Assembly (NCBI GenBank): GCA_016871685.1
Contig: VHCM01000007.1
Span: 1 to 45,393, forward strand
Length of the DNA: 45,393 bases
Reading direction: 5' to 3'
From: Verrucomicrobiota bacterium
Lineage (GTDB): Bacteria; Verrucomicrobiota; Verrucomicrobiia; Verrucomicrobiales; Akkermansiaceae
The notes under the pieces were generated by a model. It was not told the origin of the DNA, ran no database searches, and was given only the letters and a program-made list of their open reading frames with translations. A program made the position numbers and the translations under genes. The number at the start of each line of letters is the position of its first letter. The stretch's first letter is position 1. This document shows positions 793 to 22,694 of this stretch, in pieces.

Positions 793-3700
793 ATGAGGGC
801 ACGATCGCAAGCGGGCTTCGCTTTGGTCACCGTGCTGGCGCTGATGGTGGTGATTGTGGTCGTGGCGGTGGGTCTGCTCGGTCTGTCGGCGGTGTCGTTG
901 CGGGTTTCCTCATCGTCCGAAGCGGCGGCGCAAGCGAGGGCCAACGCCCGCACTGCGCTGACCCTTGCTCTCGGCCGTCTTCAGGAAGCCGCTGGTCCCG
1001 ACGAACGTATCACCGCGCGGGCGGATTTGCTCGGTGCGGATGTGAAACGGCCGCGACTGACCGGCGTCTGGAAATCCCGCGCGTTTGATGTGGCGCAGCC
1101 TCCCGGTCCCACGGATGGCGAGCGCGCCACCAAGGAACGAATGTTCGAGGGTTGGTTGGTGTCATCAGCTGATCCCGCGACGACCCGCTTGCATGCGTTT
1201 GTCGAGAGAACGTCAGCCGGGCGCAAGGTGTTGATGCTGGGTCAGGGCACCTTGGGATCCGAGGCAAAGGATGAGGATCGTGTTGAGGCGGAAATCGTCC
1301 CGGTTGACGGATCCCGCGATGGTCTGGCGTGGGTGGTGGCTGACGAGGGGGTCAAGGCGCGGATCAATACGACGTGGAGGGACGCGATCGACAGCCAAGC
1401 CGCGCAGACGTCGCTGCTGGGTGAGGGAAAGCGTGCGGCGGTTGAGAAACTCGAGGGCATGGACGGTCTCGATCGCGCGCAATTCGAATCGGCGGCCCCG
1501 GAGGCACGGCGATGGGAGAAATCGGCGACGATGGGGAGTGTCGTGCTGGCGGCGGATCCGTTCGTCGCTGATGCGGCGGGTATGATGCGAAGGCATCATC
1601 ACGACATCAGCGCGCATGCCGCGGGGTTGTTTACCGATGTCGCCCGCGGCGGGCTCATGGAGGACATGAATTCGATCGCCGACCTGCGGTTGCGCTCGCC
1701 CCGCAGCATGCCGGCCGCGTATTCCGGATGGATCTATGAAAAACTGCTGGGCATGGATGCGGTGTCCGCATCGACGGGCCCGCGATGGGAGAACTTCCTC
1801 GACTTCGCGAACAGCTACCGCACCATGATGAAGCGGCTCGGCCGCTCGACGCCGGTGGTGTCCGCGGTCTGGCCCGGCGACTGGCGTGCGGTGGTTTCCG
1901 CAGGCGGCAGCCTCCGCGCGAACACAACGCCGCCTTCCGGCATGGTCTTGTTTCCTGTGGTGGCGCGCGTGCAGATGATCTTCTCACTCGTCGCGCGGGA
2001 CATCTACGGCTACTCGGGCGGGGCCGGCAGCCCGATCCCGTCGAATGCGCCCGGCATCCACGAGCCGCAAGCGGGATACTTCCGCGGCACGCGCTATCAA
2101 TACGATCTGCAGCTGGTTTACACGCCGGTGGTCACGCTCCACAACCCGTACAACACGATGCTCGAGTTCAACAACCTCGAGGTCGAGTTCGCCAATGTCC
2201 CGTTCGCCGCGACCGTGTACCGCAACGGCATCCCGCAGAACCGCGGTCTCACTCCGATCGACAAGATGTACGCCAACAACGAGTCCGGGCGATCATCGAA
2301 GAGTTTCAAGATGAAGCTCAAGTCGGCGTCGGGGAGCGGTCAACCCGGCAGCGCGACCTTCCGCATGCTGCCCGGAGAGACCAAGTTGTTTTCGCCCTAC
2401 ATCGATCCCAACCGCACGTACGCCGAGGACCTGCGCAATCCGCAGTTCTGGGATTACAATTTCACGACTTCCGACGACAGCATGACGCGCCGCATCGAGG
2501 CGACTCCCGGTTGGCGCGGTGATGGCATCGGCTTTTCGCTCGACTGGTGGAATCCCGCGGATGTGCGCATCGCCGGACCCGACAAGGAGAACGGGCGCTG
2601 GGCGGGTTGCATCGGGCTGGCGCGCGATGACGAAATCCACCTCGAGTTTGCGCCGCTCAGCGTGCCGCAGACGAGCAACAACCGGTTCCTCACCATCCTG
2701 CGCGCCACGCCCACCGCGAGCAGCGCGCGGCCGGTCGAAGTCTCGGCGCTCGAGTTCGATTATGAAAAGCCCGACGGCCTCACGCAGTTCCTGCTCGATG
2801 GCAAGACCACGCTGCGCTACCCGAAACAGGGTACAGTCAACACGTTGGAGATGCTCGATCACTCGAGCACACCGATCAAGAACTACACGCGGGTGAAGCC
2901 GTTCGCGTTGTTCACCATCGAGGGCAAAACCACCTCCGGCGGGCGCGACCCGGACCATCTTGACGGACGTCATGCCTCGAAACCCTGGAGTCTGGCGCAT
3001 CCGGTGGCCGCCGTCTCGACCCAGAAGATCCTCACCGAGCATCCGGCGTGGCATTCGCACGAGATCGACCTGCGGCGGCTCGACAACGGGTCGGCCGACA
3101 TCCTGCAGCTCGACTCACGCGACCGTGCGAACTTTGTCACCGGCCACACTTCGTTCAACGGCGTGAAGTTCGGCATGCTTTACGACCTGCCGCTGCATCC
3201 GCCGCAGACGCTGGCGTCGCTCAACAGCGCGAACCCAGCGGGTGCCTCGGCCTATCCGCCGCGATTCGCCCAGCCGATCGGCAATTCCTGGGCGCATCCG
3301 ATGCTGGCGGCGGGTCGCGTGGTCGACACGACGAAGCAACCGGCGTGGATCGATCATTCCTATCTTCTTAATGCCGCGATGGCCGACCGCTTTTATTTTT
3401 CCGGATTCGGCGACCGCGGCGGAACATTCGGGGCGAGCGGCCGCGACACGACGCCGGACAAGCTGGCTGAGCAGTTTGCCGATGGTGGCGCCACTTGGCA
3501 CGATCCACGCATGAAGTTCCACGCTGCCGACGGCGGTGAGGCGGAGGATTTCGTGAAGCTCCTCGCCCAGCCATCGGGCGAGACGCCGTCACAGGTCGCC
3601 GCGTGGCAGATCATGGAGGGCCGGTTCAACATCCACTCGACCTCGGTGGCGGCGTGGAAGGCGATGCTGGCGTCCGTGCACGACACGCAGGCATTGGTCA

Positions 3701-4416
3701 ACCTCGTCGACAGCCGCCGGTCGCCGACATCCGCGCTGGAGACGTTGCGCGCCGATCCGGATGCGGTCCGCCTCAGCCGCTTCCGCATGCCCGCCGCGCA
3801 TCCGCCGCCATATGGCGAAAGCGAGGCGATGTCCTATTGGCTGGGGAGTCGGTCACTCGACGATCGTGAGCTCGATCTGCTGGCGCGGAGCATTGTCGAC
3901 CGCATTCGCGAGCGTGGCCCGTTTTTGTCGCTGGCCGAATTCGTGAACCGCACGCCCAGCAGCGGCGCGGCCGCACTCAAGGGTGTGTTGCAGGAGGCGA
4001 TCGACGTCTCTGGCATCAACAACGCCCTTGCGGCGCAAGCCAATGCGGGCTGGGACATCCCGGCCGACGCGGTGAGGACCCACAAGTACGCCCATCCCGA
4101 AGCCGCCATGGGTCCGTCGTGGCAGGGGGCACCCGGCGCGCTTTCGCAGGCCGACATCCTCAGCGTGCTTGGAAACGCCGCGTCCGCGCGATCCGACACC
4201 TTCGTGATCCGCGCGTATGGCGAGACAGCGGCGGCGGATGGATCGATCGTCGTGCGTGCTTGGTGCGAGGCGGTTGTGCAGCGTCATCCCGAATGGATCG
4301 ATCCGGCCGATGCCGCAGTGACACGTCCCGAGGGGCTCACCCGTCCGGTGAACCGTACTTTTGGCAGGCGCTTCGAAGTCGTTGGTTTCCGCTGGCTTGA
4401 CCCCGACGAAACATGA
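793..4416 (+). CDS. Verru_Chthon cassette protein A (pilin-like N-terminus)
   Basis: A protein of about 1,207 residues. Its N-terminus is type IV pilin/pseudopilin-like: a short basic leader, then GFALVTVLALMVV and a long hydrophobic helix to about residue 35, followed by an alanine-rich amphipathic stretch with ARTALTLALGRLQE. This matches the lineage-specific family called Verru_Chthon cassette protein A, known from Verrucomicrobia and Chthoniobacter. Cassette proteins are thought to be exported or assembled by a type II/IV-pilus-like system; their role is not established. ATG 793 is preferred to the in-frame TTG at 784 because a GAGAG lies at the proper distance and the leader is then short. 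The next gene overlaps by four bases (ATGA). The usual partners B, C and D are not in this window. Confidence 0.85.
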   Translation: MRARSQAGFALVTVLALMVVIVVVAVGLLGLSAVSLRVSSSSEAAAQARANARTALTLALGRLQEAAGPDERITARADLLGADVKRPRLTGVWKSRAFDVAQPPGPTDGERATKERMFEGWLVSSADPATTRLHAFVERTSAGRKVLMLGQGTLGSEAKDEDRVEAEIVPVDGSRDGLAWVVADEGVKARINTTWRDAIDSQAAQTSLLGEGKRAAVEKLEGMDGLDRAQFESAAPEARRWEKSATMGSVVLAADPFVADAAGMMRRHHHDISAHAAGLFTDVARGGLMEDMNSIADLRLRSPRSMPAAYSGWIYEKLLGMDAVSASTGPRWENFLDFANSYRTMMKRLGRSTPVVSAVWPGDWRAVVSAGGSLRANTTPPSGMVLFPVVARVQMIFSLVARDIYGYSGGAGSPIPSNAPGIHEPQAGYFRGTRYQYDLQLVYTPVVTLHNPYNTMLEFNNLEVEFANVPFAATVYRNGIPQNRGLTPIDKMYANNESGRSSKSFKMKLKSASGSGQPGSATFRMLPGETKLFSPYIDPNRTYAEDLRNPQFWDYNFTTSDDSMTRRIEATPGWRGDGIGFSLDWWNPADVRIAGPDKENGRWAGCIGLARDDEIHLEFAPLSVPQTSNNRFLTILRATPTASSARPVEVSALEFDYEKPDGLTQFLLDGKTTLRYPKQGTVNTLEMLDHSSTPIKNYTRVKPFALFTIEGKTTSGGRDPDHLDGRHASKPWSLAHPVAAVSTQKILTEHPAWHSHEIDLRRLDNGSADILQLDSRDRANFVTGHTSFNGVKFGMLYDLPLHPPQTLASLNSANPAGASAYPPRFAQPIGNSWAHPMLAAGRVVDTTKQPAWIDHSYLLNAAMADRFYFSGFGDRGGTFGASGRDTTPDKLAEQFADGGATWHDPRMKFHAADGGEAEDFVKLLAQPSGETPSQVAAWQIMEGRFNIHSTSVAAWKAMLASVHDTQALVNLVDSRRSPTSALETLRADPDAVRLSRFRMPAAHPPPYGESEAMSYWLGSRSLDDRELDLLARSIVDRIRERGPFLSLAEFVNRTPSSGAAALKGVLQEAIDVSGINNALAAQANAGWDIPADAVRTHKYAHPEAAMGPSWQGAPGALSQADILSVLGNAASARSDTFVIRAYGETAAADGSIVVRAWCEAVVQRHPEWIDPADAAVTRPEGLTRPVNRTFGRRFEVVGFRWLDPDET

Positions 4417-5126
4417 TTGTGTTCCATTCCATTCGCTCCATCGCAACCCGCTCGCTGAGATTCGTCGTGCCGATGATCGTTCTCGCGCATGCCACTGTCC
4501 GCGCCGCGGTCGAGTGCCGGTTGCTCTGGTGCGATCCGCAACAGGAGGCACCGGGATTGGTGCATGCGGATTTGGAAAACACGCTGCGGCCGGTGTCGCT
4601 CGCCGCGCTGAAGATCCAGCCGCCGGTGCTGCTGCATCCGCGCGAGGGAACGATCCGCTTGTTTCATGCCGACGACTGCTCGGCTGCTTGCACGGTGACG
4701 GTGCCGTCCGCGGTCCGCCGCGCGCTGTTGTTGTTGATGCCCGGTGAAACGCCGCGCTCGTTGCGAGCGATGCTCGTGGATGACTCGCCCGGCCGTGTTC
4801 CCGATGCCGGGGCCTGTGTGGTCAACCTCTCGAAAGTCCACATCCGGCTTGCGGTGGGCGAGCACCGCGCGTTGATCGTCCCCGGTGCCGATCATCCGCT
4901 GGTTTGCCCGCAGGAGCGCGATGATTTCAACATGGCGCAAGTGCTGTTCCAGTTCGAGCGCGACGGTGCATGGCGGACCGCGAGCGAGACCCGTCTGCGA
5001 TTCGCGCCGGGGATGCGCCATTTGATCCTTGCCGAGCACGATGTCCGCTCCGGACGTCCGCGCGTGCGCACGTTCACCGACGCGGGTGTGGCGCGACCGG
5101 TGGCCGACGCCGCCGCGGCGGAATGA
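4413..5126 (+). CDS. secreted protein of unknown function, coupled to cassette protein A
   Basis: A 237-residue protein with a basic N-terminus and a hydrophobic segment at about residues 15-31 ending near AVRAA, which looks like a cleavable signal peptide. The rest has several beta-strand-like stretches, a few cysteines (RLLWCDPQ, DDCSAACT, LVCPQE) and no catalytic motif I recognise. The start codon overlaps the stop of the cassette gene as ATGA, so the two are almost certainly translated together and probably act in the same surface or export process. No specific function can be assigned. Confidence 0.75.
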   Translation: MIVFHSIRSIATRSLRFVVPMIVLAHATVRAAVECRLLWCDPQQEAPGLVHADLENTLRPVSLAALKIQPPVLLHPREGTIRLFHADDCSAACTVTVPSAVRRALLLLMPGETPRSLRAMLVDDSPGRVPDAGACVVNLSKVHIRLAVGEHRALIVPGADHPLVCPQERDDFNMAQVLFQFERDGAWRTASETRLRFAPGMRHLILAEHDVRSGRPRVRTFTDAGVARPVADAAAAE

Positions 5127-10713: not shown

Positions 10714-11802
10714 ATGTCCGCCACGACCACCGTTTCAATTGGAAACCGCAACTTCGTCCTGGACCGCAGCAAGGCCGAGGAGGCCTTCGCCGCCAAGAAG
10801 GTCATCAACGGCCGCGACACGATGTTCTTCAACATCCTGCCGCTCAAGTACCAGTGGGCCTACGACCTCTACAAGACGATGAAAAACAACCACTGGGAGC
10901 CCGAGGACATCACGATGCAGAAGGATGTCGAACAGTGGCGCTCGGACGAGATCACCGACGTCGAGCGGTGGATCATCAAGATGGGCATCGGCTACTTCTC
11001 GGCGGCCGAAGGCATCGTTGGCGACAACATCCTCCATGTCGTACGCGAGGTCGTCACCGCCCCCGAACTCAAGCTCGTGCTCGGCCGCCACGCCCACGAG
11101 GAAAACATCCATGCGGACAGCCTGGTCTACATGCTGTCGTCGCTGGGCCTCAATCCGCACGAGTGCGAGGCGATGTTCGAGGACATCCCGACCATCCGCG
11201 AGAAGAACCATTTCGTGGTTTCCAACAGCCGCTCGCTGCGCCGCGACATCGACCTCACCGACACCGCCAACAAGCAGGCGCTCGCCAAGAACATCTTCAT
11301 GTTCGGCCAGGTGATGGAGGGCACGCAATTCTACGGCCTGTTCGGCATGATCCTCTCGCTCTACCGCCAGAACAAGTTTCCGGGCATCGGCACGATGTTC
11401 CGCTACACGTTGCGCGACGAGTCGAACCACATCGAGGTGTTCCGCAACCTGCTCATGGACCTCATCGACGAGAACCCGGACATCTGGACCGAAGCGTTCC
11501 GCGAGGACCTGCGCTCGACGATGAGCGAGGGCATCGAGCTGGAGAAGCGCTTCATCCGCGACTGCCTGCCGGTGGCCGCCGTCGGACTCAACGCTTCCGA
11601 CTTCGAAAGCTACATCGATTACATCGCCGACCGCCGTCTCACCTCGTGCGGGCTCGCGCCGCTCAATCCTTCGGCCAACAACCCGTTCCCCTGGCTCGCC
11701 GAGATGATGGACATCAAGAAGGAGACCAACTTCTTCGAGGGCCGCGTCACCGAATACCAGAAGGCATCGGCGCTTTCCAACGTGAGCGATGACGAGCTGT
11801 AA
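10714..11802 (+). CDS. nrdB: ribonucleotide reductase small subunit, class Ic-like
   Basis: A 362-residue R2 subunit that builds the metal cofactor starting radical chemistry for deoxyribonucleotide synthesis. Expected metal ligands are present: E99 (SAAEGIVGDN), E130 and H133 (EENIHADSLVY), E202 (VMEGTQFYG), E236 and H239 (RDESNHIEVF). The position of the stable tyrosyl radical of class Ia enzymes holds L137, two residues before Y139. The chlamydial class Ic enzyme has phenylalanine there and a tyrosine two residues later, and uses a Mn/Fe cofactor; the first ligand is glutamate rather than aspartate in both. So a class Ic-type metal cofactor without a tyrosyl radical is inferred. The C-terminal VTEYQKASALS holds the radical-transfer tyrosine Y348. 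nrdA follows after a four-helix-bundle gene. Confidence 0.93.
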   Translation: MSATTTVSIGNRNFVLDRSKAEEAFAAKKVINGRDTMFFNILPLKYQWAYDLYKTMKNNHWEPEDITMQKDVEQWRSDEITDVERWIIKMGIGYFSAAEGIVGDNILHVVREVVTAPELKLVLGRHAHEENIHADSLVYMLSSLGLNPHECEAMFEDIPTIREKNHFVVSNSRSLRRDIDLTDTANKQALAKNIFMFGQVMEGTQFYGLFGMILSLYRQNKFPGIGTMFRYTLRDESNHIEVFRNLLMDLIDENPDIWTEAFREDLRSTMSEGIELEKRFIRDCLPVAAVGLNASDFESYIDYIADRRLTSCGLAPLNPSANNPFPWLAEMMDIKKETNFFEGRVTEYQKASALSNVSDDEL

Positions 11803-11803
11803 A

Positions 11804-11820
11804 CCGCCGCGAAGCGGCGG
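11804..11820 (+). terminator. GC hairpin right after nrdB
   Basis: CCGCCGC-GAA-GCGGCGG forms a perfect seven-pair stem beginning two bases after the nrdB stop codon. No T run follows, so it may be a weak terminator, an mRNA-stabilising structure, or the outer edge of the inverted-repeat unit that begins at 11822: GCGGCGGA recurs, in reverse complement, just beyond the right arm. Confidence 0.4.
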
Positions 11821-11821
11821 A

Positions 11822-12265
11822 GTGCCGAGTGAGAAGTGAGAAGTGAATCAATGAACGAAATCGAGACATTTGAAGATTTGGACGTTTGGAAACGTGGCTA
11901 CCAACTGGCCGTGGACGTCCATGTCGCGCTTGCCGAGTCAAAAGACTTCGCCTTGCGCGGTCAAATGGAGCGCTCATCTCTTTCGATTCCCTCGAATATC
12001 GCTGAAGGCGCGGAGAGAGACAACACGGCCGAATTTATCAACTTCCTTCGCTATTCAAAAGGCTCCTGTGGCGAACTCCGCACGCAACTCTACGTCGCCG
12101 AGCGCGTCCGGCAACGTCTTGGTGCCCCTCCGCTCGAAGGCTCTCGCGAAATGATCGCCGAAACCCGCGAAATCTCCCGCATGATCCGCGGCCTGATCAA
12201 CTCTCTCAAACGCCGACTCAAAGCCTGATTCTTCCACTTCTCACTTGTCACTTCTCACTCGGCAC
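11822..12265. repeat. inverted-repeat unit enclosing the four-helix-bundle gene
   Basis: The left arm GTGCCGAGTGAGAAGTGA (11822-11839) and the right arm TCACTTCTCACTCGGCAC (12248-12265) are exact reverse complements over 18 bases. Inside each arm the heptamer GTGAGAA is repeated. Outside the arms GCGGCGGA (11814-11821) reappears inverted at about 12273, so the symmetry continues with an insertion. The unit contains only the four-helix-bundle gene and sits between nrdB and nrdA. No transposase is present. Confidence 0.75.
11851..12228 (+). CDS. four helix bundle protein (S23/IVS-type, TIGR02436-like)
   Basis: A 125-residue helical protein of the family found as intervening-sequence proteins in 23S rRNA genes and as free-standing genes, related to accessory variability determinants. 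Typical blocks are FEDLDVWKRGYQLAVDV at the start, then SSLSIPSNIAEGAER and FLRYSKGSCGELRTQL. The molecular role of free-standing members is unknown. ATG 11851 follows the heptamer GTGAGAAGTGA, which can act as the ribosome-binding site. The gene is wholly enclosed by an 18-bp inverted repeat and splits nrdB from nrdA, so it looks like a small inserted cassette rather than part of nucleotide metabolism. Confidence 0.88.
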   Translation: MNEIETFEDLDVWKRGYQLAVDVHVALAESKDFALRGQMERSSLSIPSNIAEGAERDNTAEFINFLRYSKGSCGELRTQLYVAERVRQRLGAPPLEGSREMIAETREISRMIRGLINSLKRRLKA

Positions 12266-12328
12266 GAACACCTCCGCCGCATCTCCTAATCTCCCTTTTC
12301 CAAAAACTCCACTTCTCCATCACACCTC

Positions 12329-15300
12329 ATGTACCACTCCATCGATCCCGCAGAAGACCAGATCCTCAAACAGGTCATCACCGACCGCTTTTCACTGCCT
12401 GCCGCCGACCGCGGGTTCTCCTGGCGCGAGGTGCTGCCGCGCGAGAAACGCGTGCCCGTCGCCGACATCATCGTCACCCGCGGCAACGAGGACACCCAGT
12501 TCTCGCTCGAGGATGTCGCCGACGCGATCGGCAACTCGCTCACCGACCTGCTCATCTCGCGGAGTGAGGACGAGCAGTCAATCTTCACCGAGCAGAACCG
12601 CCAGTTCGTCTCGGACGTCGCCCACAGTGTGGCCAACTCGCTGACCCGCTCGCTCGACGACGGCGGACGCCTGCGCTTGTCGGAGGCCGATCTCTACCTG
12701 CTCATCGAGAAGGCGTTGTTGGAAAGTGAGGCGTACGATGTGGCGAAGTCGCTGGCCTTCCGCCGCTCGATGGAGAAGCACGGCAGTGTCGACCTCAACG
12801 CCGGTCCCGGTACCCTGCCGGTGCGCCTGATCCGCCGCAACGGCAATGTCGTCCCCTGGTCAGAGACCAAGATCGAGATCGCCGTGCGCAAGGCGTTCCT
12901 CACCATCAAGGCCAACCCCGAGCCCGCGATCGACATCGCGCGCGGCGTCACCGAGCGCGTCCGCCGCGGCGACCAGTCGTTCGTCCACATCGAGGATGTG
13001 CAGGACATGGTGCAGGAGGAACTCATGCGCCAAGGCCACTTCAAGGCGGCCGAGCACTACATTCTCTACCGTGCGCAGCGCTCCCGCCTGCGCGAGGAGG
13101 CCGAGGCCAATGCCGAGGATCCCAATCAGGACTTCATGGTCACCGTCACCACCGAGGACGGGCGTTCCTCGTTCTGGGACGGCATCGAACTCAAAAAGCG
13201 CATCTCCTTCGCCTCCATCGGCCTCGACCTCTGCCTCGGCGAGGCCGAGATCGAACGCGAACTGCGCCGCTCCGTCGGCTCGGAAATTTCGGATAAAGAC
13301 CTCAAAAACACCATCATCCTCAACGCCAAGGCGCTCATCGAGAAGGATGCCGACTTCGCCAAATTCGCCGGACGCATTCTGCTTTCCTATCTGTACGAGG
13401 AGGTGCTCGACTGGTCCATTTCCAAAGACGGCATCGACAAGCTCAAAGCCGCCCACAAGAAGGCGTTCAAGTCCTACCTGAAGCATGGCGTCGCCATCAA
13501 ACGCCTGCATCCCGAACTGCTCGAAGTTTACAATCTCGACAAGCTGGCCGACGCCTTCGATCCCACCGCCGACCTCGACTTCGACTATCTCGGCATCCAG
13601 ACGCTGTACGACCGCTATCTCATCGTCGACAAGACCGGGCAGAAACCACGCCGCCTCGAGACGCCGCAGTTCTTCTGGATGCGCGTCGCCATGGGTTTGT
13701 TCAAGAAGGAGGAGAAGGACGCCGAAAGCTGGGTGATCCGCCTTTACAACCTCTACAAGGGCCGCCGCTTCTGCTCCTCCACGCCCACGCTTTTCAACTC
13801 GGGCACCCTGCACTCGCAGCTCTCGTCCTGCTACCTCTACAAGGTGGACGACTCGATCGAGTCGATCATGATCCGCGGCGTCGCCGAAAACGCGTTCCTC
13901 TCCAAGTGGGCCGGCGGCCTCGGCGGATCGTGGACCGCCGTGCGCGGCACCGGCGGCTACATCCAAGGCACCAACGGCGAGTCACAGGGCATCATCCCGT
14001 TCCTCAAACTTCACAACGACCAACTCGTCGCGGTGAACCAGGGCGGCAAGCGCCGCGGTTCCGGCTGCGCCTACCTCGAGTCGTGGCACAATGACATCGA
14101 GGACTTCCTCGAGCTGCGCAAGAACACCGGCGACGAGCGTCGCCGCTGCCACGACATGAACACCGCGAACTGGATCCCGGATTTGTTCATGAAGCGGATG
14201 GAGGAGCGCCAGCATTGGACCTTGTTCCGTTCCAACGAAGTGCCCGACCTCCACGACCTCTACGGCAAGGCGTTCGAGCGCCGCTACACCGAGTACGAAC
14301 AGATGGCCGCGCAGGGACTCATCTGGTCGCGCCAGATCCCCGCGATCGAATTGTGGAAATCGATGCTCAAGATGGTGTTCGAAACCGGCCACCCCTGGAT
14401 CACCTTCAAGGATCCCTGCAATGTGAGATCCCCGCAGGATCATGTCGGAGTCATCCATTCATCCAACTTGTGCACCGAAATCACTTTGAATACAAGTGAT
14501 GAGGAAACCGCGGTTTGCAACCTCGGTTCGGTGATCCTCGATTCCCACATCACCCGGGACGGGGCCATCGACCACGAGATGCTCAAGGAAACGATCACCG
14601 TCGCGATCCGTGCGCTCGACAACGTGATCGACATCAACTTCTACCCGACCACCGCCGCCAGGACCGCGAACTCGCGCCATCGCCCCATCGGCCTCGGCGT
14701 GATGGGCCTGCAGAACGCGCTTTACAAGCGCGGCCTTGCCTTCGCCTCGGATGCCGCCGTCGATTTCAACGACGAAGTCATGGAAGCCGTCGCCTACTAC
14801 GCCTACAGCGCGTCGAGCGACCTTGCGGCCGAGCTCGGCACTTACTCGACTTACAAAGGCTCGAAATGGGACCGCGGACTGCTTCCGCAGGATACCGTCG
14901 ATCTGCTCGAAGACGAACGCGGCCGAGCGATCGACGTCCCGCGCGGCGGTAAGATGGACTGGTCGGTGGTCAGGGAAAAAATCGCCAAACACGGCATGCG
15001 CAACTCCAACGTGCTCGCCATCGCCCCCACCGCGACGATTTCCAACATCATGGGCACCACGCCCTGCATCGAGCCGAACTACAAGAACCTTTATGTGAAA
15101 TCCAACCTCTCCGGGGATTTCATCGTGCTCAATGCCGAACTCGTCAAAGACCTGAAAAAGGCCGGCCTTTGGAATCAGGAAATGCTCGACCAGTTGAAAT
15201 ACTTCGACGGCGAGCTCGACGCGATCGAGGACATCCCGGAAACGCTCAAGCAGAAGCACAAGACCGTCTTCGGCATCGCCCACGAATTCATCATCGACGC

Positions 15301-15616
15301 CGCCGCCCGCCGCCAGAAGTGGATCGACCAGTCGCAGTCGGTCAATCTCTTCCTCGCCACCCCGGACATGAAGACCCTGTCGCACATGTACCGCCGCGCC
15401 TGGGACAAGGGGTTGAAGACCACCTACTACCTCCGCACGCTCCAGGCCTCCAACATCGAGAAGGCGACCATCGACGTGAAAAAGGAGCAGCGCGGAGTGA
15501 TGGCGAAACAAACGGCGGCAACTGCCGTCGGCGTCAAGCAGTTCTCCGAGGCAGAGAAAAACGCCTGCTCCCTCGAGGCGATGCTCAACGGCGGCGAGTG
15601 CGAAGCGTGTCAGTAG
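12329..15616 (+). CDS. nrdA: ribonucleoside-diphosphate reductase, large subunit
   Basis: A 1,095-residue catalytic subunit. The canonical ATP-cone lies at about residues 164-255 (VRLIRRNGNVVPWSETKIE). Before it, residues 45-148 (IIVTRGNEDTQFSLEDV, then DVAHSVANSL and YDVAKSLAFRR) resemble a second, more divergent cone, so activity control by dATP/ATP is likely. The catalytic barrel has C501 (SSCYL), N713-C715-E717 (NLCTE), C730 (VCNLGS) and Y1033/Y1034 (TTYYLRT). The C-terminal pair C1091/C1094 (GECEAC) reduces the active site. Large N-terminal extensions with multiple cones are also known in chlamydial NrdA, which fits the class Ic-like NrdB partner. The separation from nrdB is due to the four-helix-bundle unit. 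Confidence 0.95.
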   Translation: MYHSIDPAEDQILKQVITDRFSLPAADRGFSWREVLPREKRVPVADIIVTRGNEDTQFSLEDVADAIGNSLTDLLISRSEDEQSIFTEQNRQFVSDVAHSVANSLTRSLDDGGRLRLSEADLYLLIEKALLESEAYDVAKSLAFRRSMEKHGSVDLNAGPGTLPVRLIRRNGNVVPWSETKIEIAVRKAFLTIKANPEPAIDIARGVTERVRRGDQSFVHIEDVQDMVQEELMRQGHFKAAEHYILYRAQRSRLREEAEANAEDPNQDFMVTVTTEDGRSSFWDGIELKKRISFASIGLDLCLGEAEIERELRRSVGSEISDKDLKNTIILNAKALIEKDADFAKFAGRILLSYLYEEVLDWSISKDGIDKLKAAHKKAFKSYLKHGVAIKRLHPELLEVYNLDKLADAFDPTADLDFDYLGIQTLYDRYLIVDKTGQKPRRLETPQFFWMRVAMGLFKKEEKDAESWVIRLYNLYKGRRFCSSTPTLFNSGTLHSQLSSCYLYKVDDSIESIMIRGVAENAFLSKWAGGLGGSWTAVRGTGGYIQGTNGESQGIIPFLKLHNDQLVAVNQGGKRRGSGCAYLESWHNDIEDFLELRKNTGDERRRCHDMNTANWIPDLFMKRMEERQHWTLFRSNEVPDLHDLYGKAFERRYTEYEQMAAQGLIWSRQIPAIELWKSMLKMVFETGHPWITFKDPCNVRSPQDHVGVIHSSNLCTEITLNTSDEETAVCNLGSVILDSHITRDGAIDHEMLKETITVAIRALDNVIDINFYPTTAARTANSRHRPIGLGVMGLQNALYKRGLAFASDAAVDFNDEVMEAVAYYAYSASSDLAAELGTYSTYKGSKWDRGLLPQDTVDLLEDERGRAIDVPRGGKMDWSVVREKIAKHGMRNSNVLAIAPTATISNIMGTTPCIEPNYKNLYVKSNLSGDFIVLNAELVKDLKKAGLWNQEMLDQLKYFDGELDAIEDIPETLKQKHKTVFGIAHEFIIDAAARRQKWIDQSQSVNLFLATPDMKTLSHMYRRAWDKGLKTTYYLRTLQASNIEKATIDVKKEQRGVMAKQTAATAVGVKQFSEAEKNACSLEAMLNGGECEACQ

Positions 15617-21426: not shown

Positions 21427-21430
21427 GGAT

Positions 21431-21450
21431 CGGTCATCGGTCATCGGTCA
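21431..21450. repeat. heptamer array, left (CGGTCAT x 3)
   Basis: Almost three tandem copies of CGGTCAT directly follow the deacetylase gene. The unit is the reverse complement of the ATGACCG unit repeated ten times at 22625-22694, so the two arrays face each other across the transpeptidase-rhodanese pair. Confidence 0.85.
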
Positions 21451-22549: not shown

Positions 22550-22624
22550 GAAGACGTGAGGCACCCGCCAACCGGCTTTCCCGCCGGATGGGTGATTTCT
22601 TCCTTCTTCCTTCTTCCCTCTTCT

Positions 22625-22694
22625 CGATAACCGATAACCGATGACCGATGACCAATGACCGATGACCGATGACCGATGACCGATGACCAATGAC
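22625..22694. repeat. heptamer array, right (CGATGAC x 10)
   Basis: Ten contiguous seven-base units: CGATAAC twice, CGATGAC twice, CAATGAC, CGATGAC four times, CAATGAC. A degenerate CTTCTTC-type repeat lies directly upstream at about 22598-22624. Its orientation is opposite to the array at 21431-21450. The ATG of the next gene (22683) lies inside the ninth unit. Confidence 0.9.

Follow-up and report, generated by a model that had tools for sequence, protein, structure and literature searches.

Why should a reductase operon carry, between its two genes, a small unrelated gene wrapped in inverted repeats? The question is raised by contig VHCM01000007.1 of a Verrucomicrobiota bacterium of the family Akkermansiaceae (GenBank assembly GCA_016871685.1), which was analysed over positions 1 to 45,393 (hereafter the window, 45,393 nucleotides [nt] in length). 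Here, positions 11,822 to 12,265 form a unit that separates nrdB from nrdA and holds one gene of the S23 family. We consider it probable that this unit is a selfish, intervening-sequence-like cassette of messenger RNAs (mRNAs): a single S23 gene held in inverted arms of heptad repeats and lodged between the genes of an operon. This reading draws together the anatomy of the unit, its sense position within operons, the filled and empty sites among relatives, the carriage of arms to other operons, arm pairs that turn over jointly, the purifying selection acting on S23, and the occurrence of an equal architecture within a 23S rRNA gene.

A small gene within a predicted stem

The ends of the unit, 11822-11839 and 12248-12265, are exact reverse complements of 18 bp each, and complementarity reaches 25 nt at 96% (24/25; 11822-11846 against 12241-12265). 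The initial annotation, made from the sequence alone, had described perfect 18-bp terminal inverted repeats built partly of the heptamer GTGAGAA, enclosing one small TIGR02436-like gene and splitting the reductase operon; each element of that description holds, and the repeats can be extended as given, with one mismatch. The arms are period-7 tandem repeats containing AGTGAGA/GTGAGAA heptads, and the space between them accommodates one open reading frame, best read from an ATG and encoding 125 amino acids (Table 1). Its product is a member of the S23 / 23S_rRNA_IVP family, matching PF05635 (23S_rRNA_IVP; E 3.2e-27, 95.3 bits against a curated cut-off of 33.8), TIGR02436 (E 6.3e-28, 97.2 bits against a cut-off of 24) and NF008912 (E 8e-39). 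The GAGAAG stretch of the 5' arm could provide a ribosome-binding site for this gene.

The inverted arms are not a product of chance. Their complementarity exceeds that of all 200 shuffles, and the predicted fold of RNA from the interval between the reductase genes (11803-12328) pairs 24 of the 25 positions of the arms, with none of 100 shuffles as stable; the RNA folds computed gave z scores of -4.0 (window interval) and -4.3. The predicted stem runs outward beyond the arms through a GC-rich segment on either side, for about 34 bp in all, so that the paired unit spans approximately 470 nt.

Table 1. Features of the nrdB-nrdA interval in the window
Feature	Position	Strand	Evidence and remarks
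nrdB, upstream operon gene	10714-11802	+	Open reading frame list; stop codon 19 nt before the 5' arm
Outer GC-rich 5' stem segment, pairs with 12273-12283	11811-11821	+	RNA fold
5' arm, AGTGCCG-AGTGAGA-AGTGAGA-AGTGA read from base 11821	11822-11846	+	Inverted-repeat search, period-7 repeat
S23 / TIGR02436 four-helix-bundle gene, 125 amino acids	11851-12228 (ATG to stop)	+	Profile matches, dN/dS
3' arm, 24/25 reverse complement of the 5' arm	12241-12265	+	Inverted-repeat search, fold; period-7 repeat 12231-12259
Outer GC-rich 3' stem segment	12273-12283	+	RNA fold
nrdA, downstream operon gene	12329-15616	+	Open reading frame list

An old site with losses

Comparison with relatives reveals the history of the site. 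NrdB was matched in 44 of 59 genomes, the window's own included; 30 loci were fetched, 29 of which extend past the nrdB stop codon (loci studied are labelled L and genomes G). Ten of the 29 are filled, with gaps of 303-681 nt, and 19 are without S23; a profile built from proteins of the family matched in all ten filled loci and in none of the 19 empty ones. Within the genus, empty nrdB-nrdA gaps measure 45-133 nt. Traces of decay accompany this division. For instance, the filled site of L156 (G010) holds a decaying copy in which the S23 frame is internally deleted. The nrd site of L151 (G008) is empty yet retains AGTGATC-type heptads, likely a deletion scar. In L172 (G044), the 503-nt gap is a gene-less cassette: some 350 nt separate inverted arms of GTCAATA/TTGACCA type, and nothing between them matches S23.

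On a tree of NrdB (29 rows), the filled and empty states require five changes. On an S23 tree, which was a quick one of 129 columns with long-branch warnings, site changes 15 times against a minimum of 12 and a shuffled mean of 59.5, so that sites cluster. Taken together, the clustering of sites and the changes of state on the two trees indicate that inheritance at long-established sites is the rule for cassettes and that loss is frequent. The copy in the window is therefore not a recent insertion, the nrd site being old and largely vertically inherited with losses.

Heptad arms in most loci of the family

PF05635 was matched in 55 of the 59 genomes searched. The wider sample comprised 125 S23 loci, all distinct in the DNA of the gene: four from the window's own genome, 11 from named genomes and 110 from relatives, the last chosen roughly by E-value, and thus with better matches favoured, from 230 remaining PF05635 matches in 58 genomes. 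Two loci had too little flank, leaving 123 in which arms could be evaluated against 200 shuffles (smallest possible p 0.005). Inverted complementary flanks were detected in 94 of the 123, versus 7 of 114 control genes, which were called as longest open frames in the window, L052-L058 and L173-L185; on reading, one flank of five of the seven positive controls turned out to be an arm of an adjacent S23 cassette. The arm value of L058 is weak because its S23 frame runs past the arm. Counted by site, arms occur in at least one locus at 42 of 50 testable sites. All four PF05635 genes of the window's own genome lie within inverted arms (each p 0.005).

What the arms share is period and register. Their median length is 33 nt, and identity stands at 0.59 (5' arm) and 0.61 (3' arm) at lag 7 and at 0.56 and 0.59 at lag 14, but falls to 0.35-0.37 for lags 8 and 15, and the remaining lags between 2 and 13 give 0.26-0.29. 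A common register, N-R-G-W-NNN, in which R-G recurs every 7 nt, carries 1.63 bits, whereas none of 20 phase-permuted controls exceeds 1.11, and G exceeds C in the 5' arm of 84 of the 94 cassettes. The two arms of one cassette resemble each other closely: their consensus heptads are at most one base apart in 70 of 94, a number that averages 4.4 and never exceeds 11 when partners are re-dealt (200 draws).

The sequence of the heptad, in turn, is largely specific to the cassette. Because the four cassettes of the window's own genome use four different units, namely GTGAGAA (window), AAGACGC (metK-ahcY), AGTGATC (nuoI-nuoJ) and CAGTCAT (gyrB-gyrA), arms seem to follow the lineage of the cassette and not the genome. 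Genome-wide homogenisation of arms is rejected on the same four cassettes. The initial annotation had proposed a minimal non-autonomous mobile cassette, and in outline this stands: readable relatives offer the empty site it had looked to, armed cassettes populate other operons, and pieces of the window's arm do recur in its own genome, without S23 (C76, C38, C6 and C11). What does not stand is a fixed, transposon-like terminal repeat common to the copies. Counted independently of register, 80 different consensus heptads are found among the 94 cassettes, and the idea fails even at a single site, where heptads vary between species while the arms stay complementary.

Sense insertions within operons

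Among the window's relatives, S23 cassettes almost always occupy a sense, operon-internal position. Of the 105 loci in which both neighbours could be called, 103 have the two codirectional with S23, equivalent to 38 of 40 sites; the remaining two loci have a divergent upstream gene. Strands of neighbours in relatives were taken from a purpose-made gene caller based on codon usage, and L060 and L103, each with a downstream neighbour only, on the opposite strand, were excluded from the 105. In the window and L052-L058, codirectional genes flank about 60% of the intergenic sequence. The 38 of 40 sites compare with approximately 30% expected from random place and strand (binomial P 4e-18) and with 50% expected from random strand within codirectional gaps (P 7e-10). 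The 5' arm begins a median of 5 nt past the upstream stop codon (83 loci, 25 of which slightly overlap the stop). Host gene pairs include metK-ahcY, gyrB-gyrA, nuoI-nuoJ and livG-livF-like ABC genes and, as judged by Pfam domains, cysD-cysN-like and argD-argF-like pairs.

Arms that change in step and move with the gene

The nrd site illustrates how arms evolve. In six named genomes with S23 proteins 82-89% identical to that of the window, the arms are composed of GTGAGAA, GTAAAAA/GTAGAAA, GGAAAAA or GTGATCA/GTGATCG, matched on both sides. Across 12 nrd-site cassettes, 89% of positions pair, versus 61% with re-dealt partners (maximum 74% in 500); mis-picked arm windows of L055 and L058 were retained in this count and lower the own-pair value. 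At shared sites more broadly, an arm pairs better with its own partner than with the mean orthologous partner in 74 of 86 cases. Both arms thus turn over jointly at a fixed site while the protein persists.

Arm similarity increases with protein identity. Between 60 and 70% identity, cassettes at different sites (0.215, 48 pairs) reach the level of those at the same site (0.235, 67 pairs); between 70 and 80%, the values are again close, at 0.389 (12 pairs) and 0.433 (90 pairs). Similarity is lower at different sites for 50-60% and for above 80% identity, the latter represented by five different-site pairs. Individual cassettes have retained their arms on moving: L057, whose operon includes a type II/IV secretion ATPase gene, has 85% protein identity to, and the same AGTGATC arms as, the nrd-site L045, and L112, at metK-ahcY, has 20 nt of arm, AGTTTGCTAGTTTTCAGTGT, in common with L051 and L079, nrd-site cassettes of another family. 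The moving unit is therefore the cassette together with its arms.

The S23 protein

The protein is under purifying selection. The ratio of nonsynonymous to synonymous substitution rates (dN/dS) has a median of 0.197 among nrd-site genes (73 pairs), and medians at six sites fall between 0.11 and 0.22, with three of the sites resting on one or two pairs. Its relatives in the PDB, 2gsc and 2rld, have five chains per entry, and a Xanthomonas S23 protein is described as a homopentamer in the accessible part of PMC4990558. A pattern scan of IMG/VR and a search of phage records returned no relative of the window protein; these were single-query searches and so weak, and they lend no support to a phage origin.

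Plasmids, CRISPR operons and a 23S rRNA gene

Cassettes of the same kind extend to other phyla. Plasmid records with an S23 relative numbered 21, of which 14 were read; arms are significant in 11 of the 14, the exceptions being L178, L183 and L184. Twelve plasmid cassettes have both neighbours annotated in the PLSDB gene table, which is incomplete, and all 12 lie between codirectional genes, nine of them in sense. Three cassettes of cyanobacterial plasmids (L181, L182 and L185) reside within type I-D and III-B CRISPR operons, in the orders cas6-S23-cas4 (twice) and cas10-S23-cmr3 (once). A Nostoc plasmid has an antisense cassette between nrdA and nrdB (L173); as the operon order is nrdA-nrdB and the cassette antisense, this insertion is most likely independent of the one in the window.

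In a pair of Nostoc plasmids, 97% identical over the region, two neighbouring sites are filled and empty reciprocally. Each insertion falls between a stop codon and the start codon that follows it, and in the empty copy only 3 nt separate the two. A TTCTA copy at the filled/empty junction is ambiguous and may be the arm's own end, a similar right end being present in L184 (one pair). One cassette of this pair, L183, has 5' heptads with no significant arm pairing. Finally, a 23S rRNA gene of Azospirillum (L186; Rfam LSU match at 1292-4490) is interrupted by an S23 insertion (match at 2501-2854) with heptad arms, in keeping with the link to 23S rRNA insertion that had been drawn for the family at the outset.

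A proposed mechanism and its alternatives

How might such a cassette persist within an operon? It lies after the stop codon of one gene and before the start of the next, bounded by arms of some four to five heptads, and would be co-transcribed with its host operon. The arms may then pair as an RNA stem of about 34 bp enclosing the S23 frame. By analogy with the 23S rRNA intervening sequence of Coxiella, RNase III probably cuts this stem and separates the insert from the cistrons on either side, which would limit the damage to the operon. S23, whose two related crystal structures have five chains each, probably binds the heptads, perhaps one per subunit, and may act in the maintenance or spread of the arms. 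TRAP, a ring-shaped reader, serves as a comparison. A bolder version, which we entertain as a possibility but find rather doubtful, is that S23 cassettes are widespread, unrecognised mobile intervening sequences of mRNAs, in which a pentamer ring takes one AG-heptad per subunit (about 5 x 7 = 35 nt, beside a median arm of 33 nt) and from which intergenic tandem heptamers largely derive, as S23 arms or gene-less derivatives. Targets would be chosen by co-transcription, and cassettes would hence come to lie inside operons.

Several observations weigh against a selfish cassette whose protein reads its arms. Significant arms are absent in 29 of 123 S23 genes, and the consensus heptad is identical in both arms of only 30 of 94 cassettes. 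An arm pairs better with its own partner than with the best orthologous one in only 26 of 86 cases. Among 60 5' arms that could be scored, the periodic tract has a median of 4.6 heptads and is four to five heptads long in 35, which matches a pentamer only loosely, and the median net charge of S23 proteins is only +1. Three of the 12 plasmid cassettes are antisense to their neighbours, one of which, L179, adjoins a transposase gene. The S23 protein of Coxiella is reported as probably not made, so that some cassettes may do without it. Moreover, heptad arrays occur also without S23, and in a small sample of eight genomes and the window their density shows no clear relation to the number of S23 genes: six arrays accompany nine S23 genes in G018, none accompany nine in G056 or seven in G041, and among genomes without S23, G037 and G046 have one array each and G057 none.

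Were the unit instead a conventional non-autonomous transposon, a transposase acting in trans would cut its terminal inverted repeats and S23 would be a passenger. Miniature inverted-repeat transposable elements (MITEs) are short units with inverted ends that leave empty sites, and S23 cassettes resemble them in all of these respects. The single gene, the moves that carry arms along (L057, L112) and the gene-less arm pairs (L215, 14398/14472; the nrd site of L172) would also suit a transposon. We nonetheless judge this unlikely, because a transposase working in trans should require ends of constant sequence, whereas each cassette lineage has heptads of its own, and these drift at a given site without loss of pairing between the arms. 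Unlike MITEs, S23 cassettes have arms unfixed in sequence, no clear target duplication in the one close filled/empty pair, and a strong preference for operons and sense orientation; a near-exclusive position of this kind is unexpected of DNA transposition without further selection. Sense co-orientation would also fit a domesticated regulator, in which S23 would bind heptads of the mRNA and tune translation or decay of the flanking genes, and the sites nrdB-nrdA, metK-ahcY, gyrB-gyrA and nuoI-nuoJ would persist through their use to the host. Purifying selection fits such a role, as do the site-bound clades of the S23 tree. A regulator of this kind becomes quite improbable in view of the 19 of 29 relatives that do without S23 at the nrd site, the five changes of state there, the functionally unrelated host operons, and the decayed copies and scars of L156, L151 and L172.

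Insertion into transcription units in the sense direction might also reflect a retroelement mobilised by reverse transcriptase in trans; S23 resembles Avd, the accessory protein of diversity-generating retroelements. Co-occurrence across the 59 genomes renders this very improbable, and we reject it: the window's own genome, with four cassettes and an assembly 95.6% complete, has no RVT_1 match, a difference from diversity-generating retroelements; 21 genomes (own included) are unmatched by RVT_1, 19 of which carry S23 (70 genes); and the numbers of RVT_1 and S23 are scarcely correlated (rank correlation 0.18, p 0.18). That replication slippage generated heptad arrays which stand beside S23 by accident is barely credible when inverted flanks mark S23 genes and so few controls, when the arrays are in complementary orientation on both sides with near-matching heptads, and when a common register runs through them.

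Relation to known systems

Read as a selfish cassette of mRNAs, the unit invites comparison with the intervening sequences of 23S rRNA. According to the accessible part of PMC4990558, that of Coxiella is 428 or 444 nt long, includes an S23 gene, has terminal inverted repeats forming a 28-bp stem, is excised by RNase III, and has an AG-rich motif and GACAGAT heptads ahead of the S23 start codon. Complementary terminal arms closing a stem are likewise found in the predicted fold of the window unit. Unlike an rRNA intervening sequence, the unit sits between the protein genes nrdB and nrdA instead of interrupting 23S rRNA. Purifying selection acts on its protein, whereas the frame in Coxiella is described as decaying in the same source.

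Intergenic heptamers have a literature of their own, quoted here from the accessible parts of the papers. GGGNATC repeats are known from Xanthomonas and Nostoc, with 70-75 inverted heptamer pairs per Xanthomonas genome, and GGGAATC repeats lie between aligned genes in approximately 65-70% of cases in two xanthomonads and in 52% in Nostoc (PMC4692102). TAACTGA heptamer repeats have also been described (PMC4679880), and a survey of tandem heptamers in 7006 prokaryotic genomes gave no clear clue to their abundance (PMC6344855). Within those parts, a term search of the three papers gave no mention of S23 or of a helix bundle. Here too the units are 7-nt tandem repeats; unlike in those accounts, they make up arms that enclose a gene as a cassette. 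In cas loci, 18 PF05635 genes are listed among CRISPR-Cas-associated functions in the accessible part of PMC3936711. PF05635 genes stand there beside Cas4, Cas6 or Cmr genes, as they do in L181, L182 and L185; the loci studied here appear as ordinary operon insertions with heptad arms. Term searches of PMC11270868 and PMC3542288 gave nothing on S23, and searches of the open-access literature, subscription journals not being covered, brought up no paper connecting S23 genes with both heptad arms and operon insertion.

The cassette reading would join three loose ends: the function of a protein family with five-chain structures, the question of where 23S rRNA intervening sequences came from, and the abundance of intergenic 7-nt repeats. 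What is surprising is that both arms consist of heptads renewed in step, a trait common to a family of operon-dwelling, intervening-sequence-like elements. If S23 does bind heptads, repeat and protein alike would be testable by simple binding and RNase III assays. The cassette reading also counsels caution against taking S23 genes in CRISPR or metabolic operons for working parts of those systems.

Heptad arrays apart from S23 genes

In samples of eight other genomes and the window, 11 arrays were found at lag 7, compared with 0, 0, 2 and 2 at lags 5, 6, 8 and 9. At 14398-14506 of L215 (arms at 14398 and 14472), a gene-less inverted heptad pair is separated by about 36 nt, as in the inverted pairs of Xanthomonas. 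The window itself has, at 21429-21450 and 22597-22694, two inverted arrays that share a heptad vocabulary (GGTCATC / CCGATGA) and have no S23 gene; they enclose an L,D-transpeptidase gene and a rhodanese gene, and the second array enters the start codon of the next gene.
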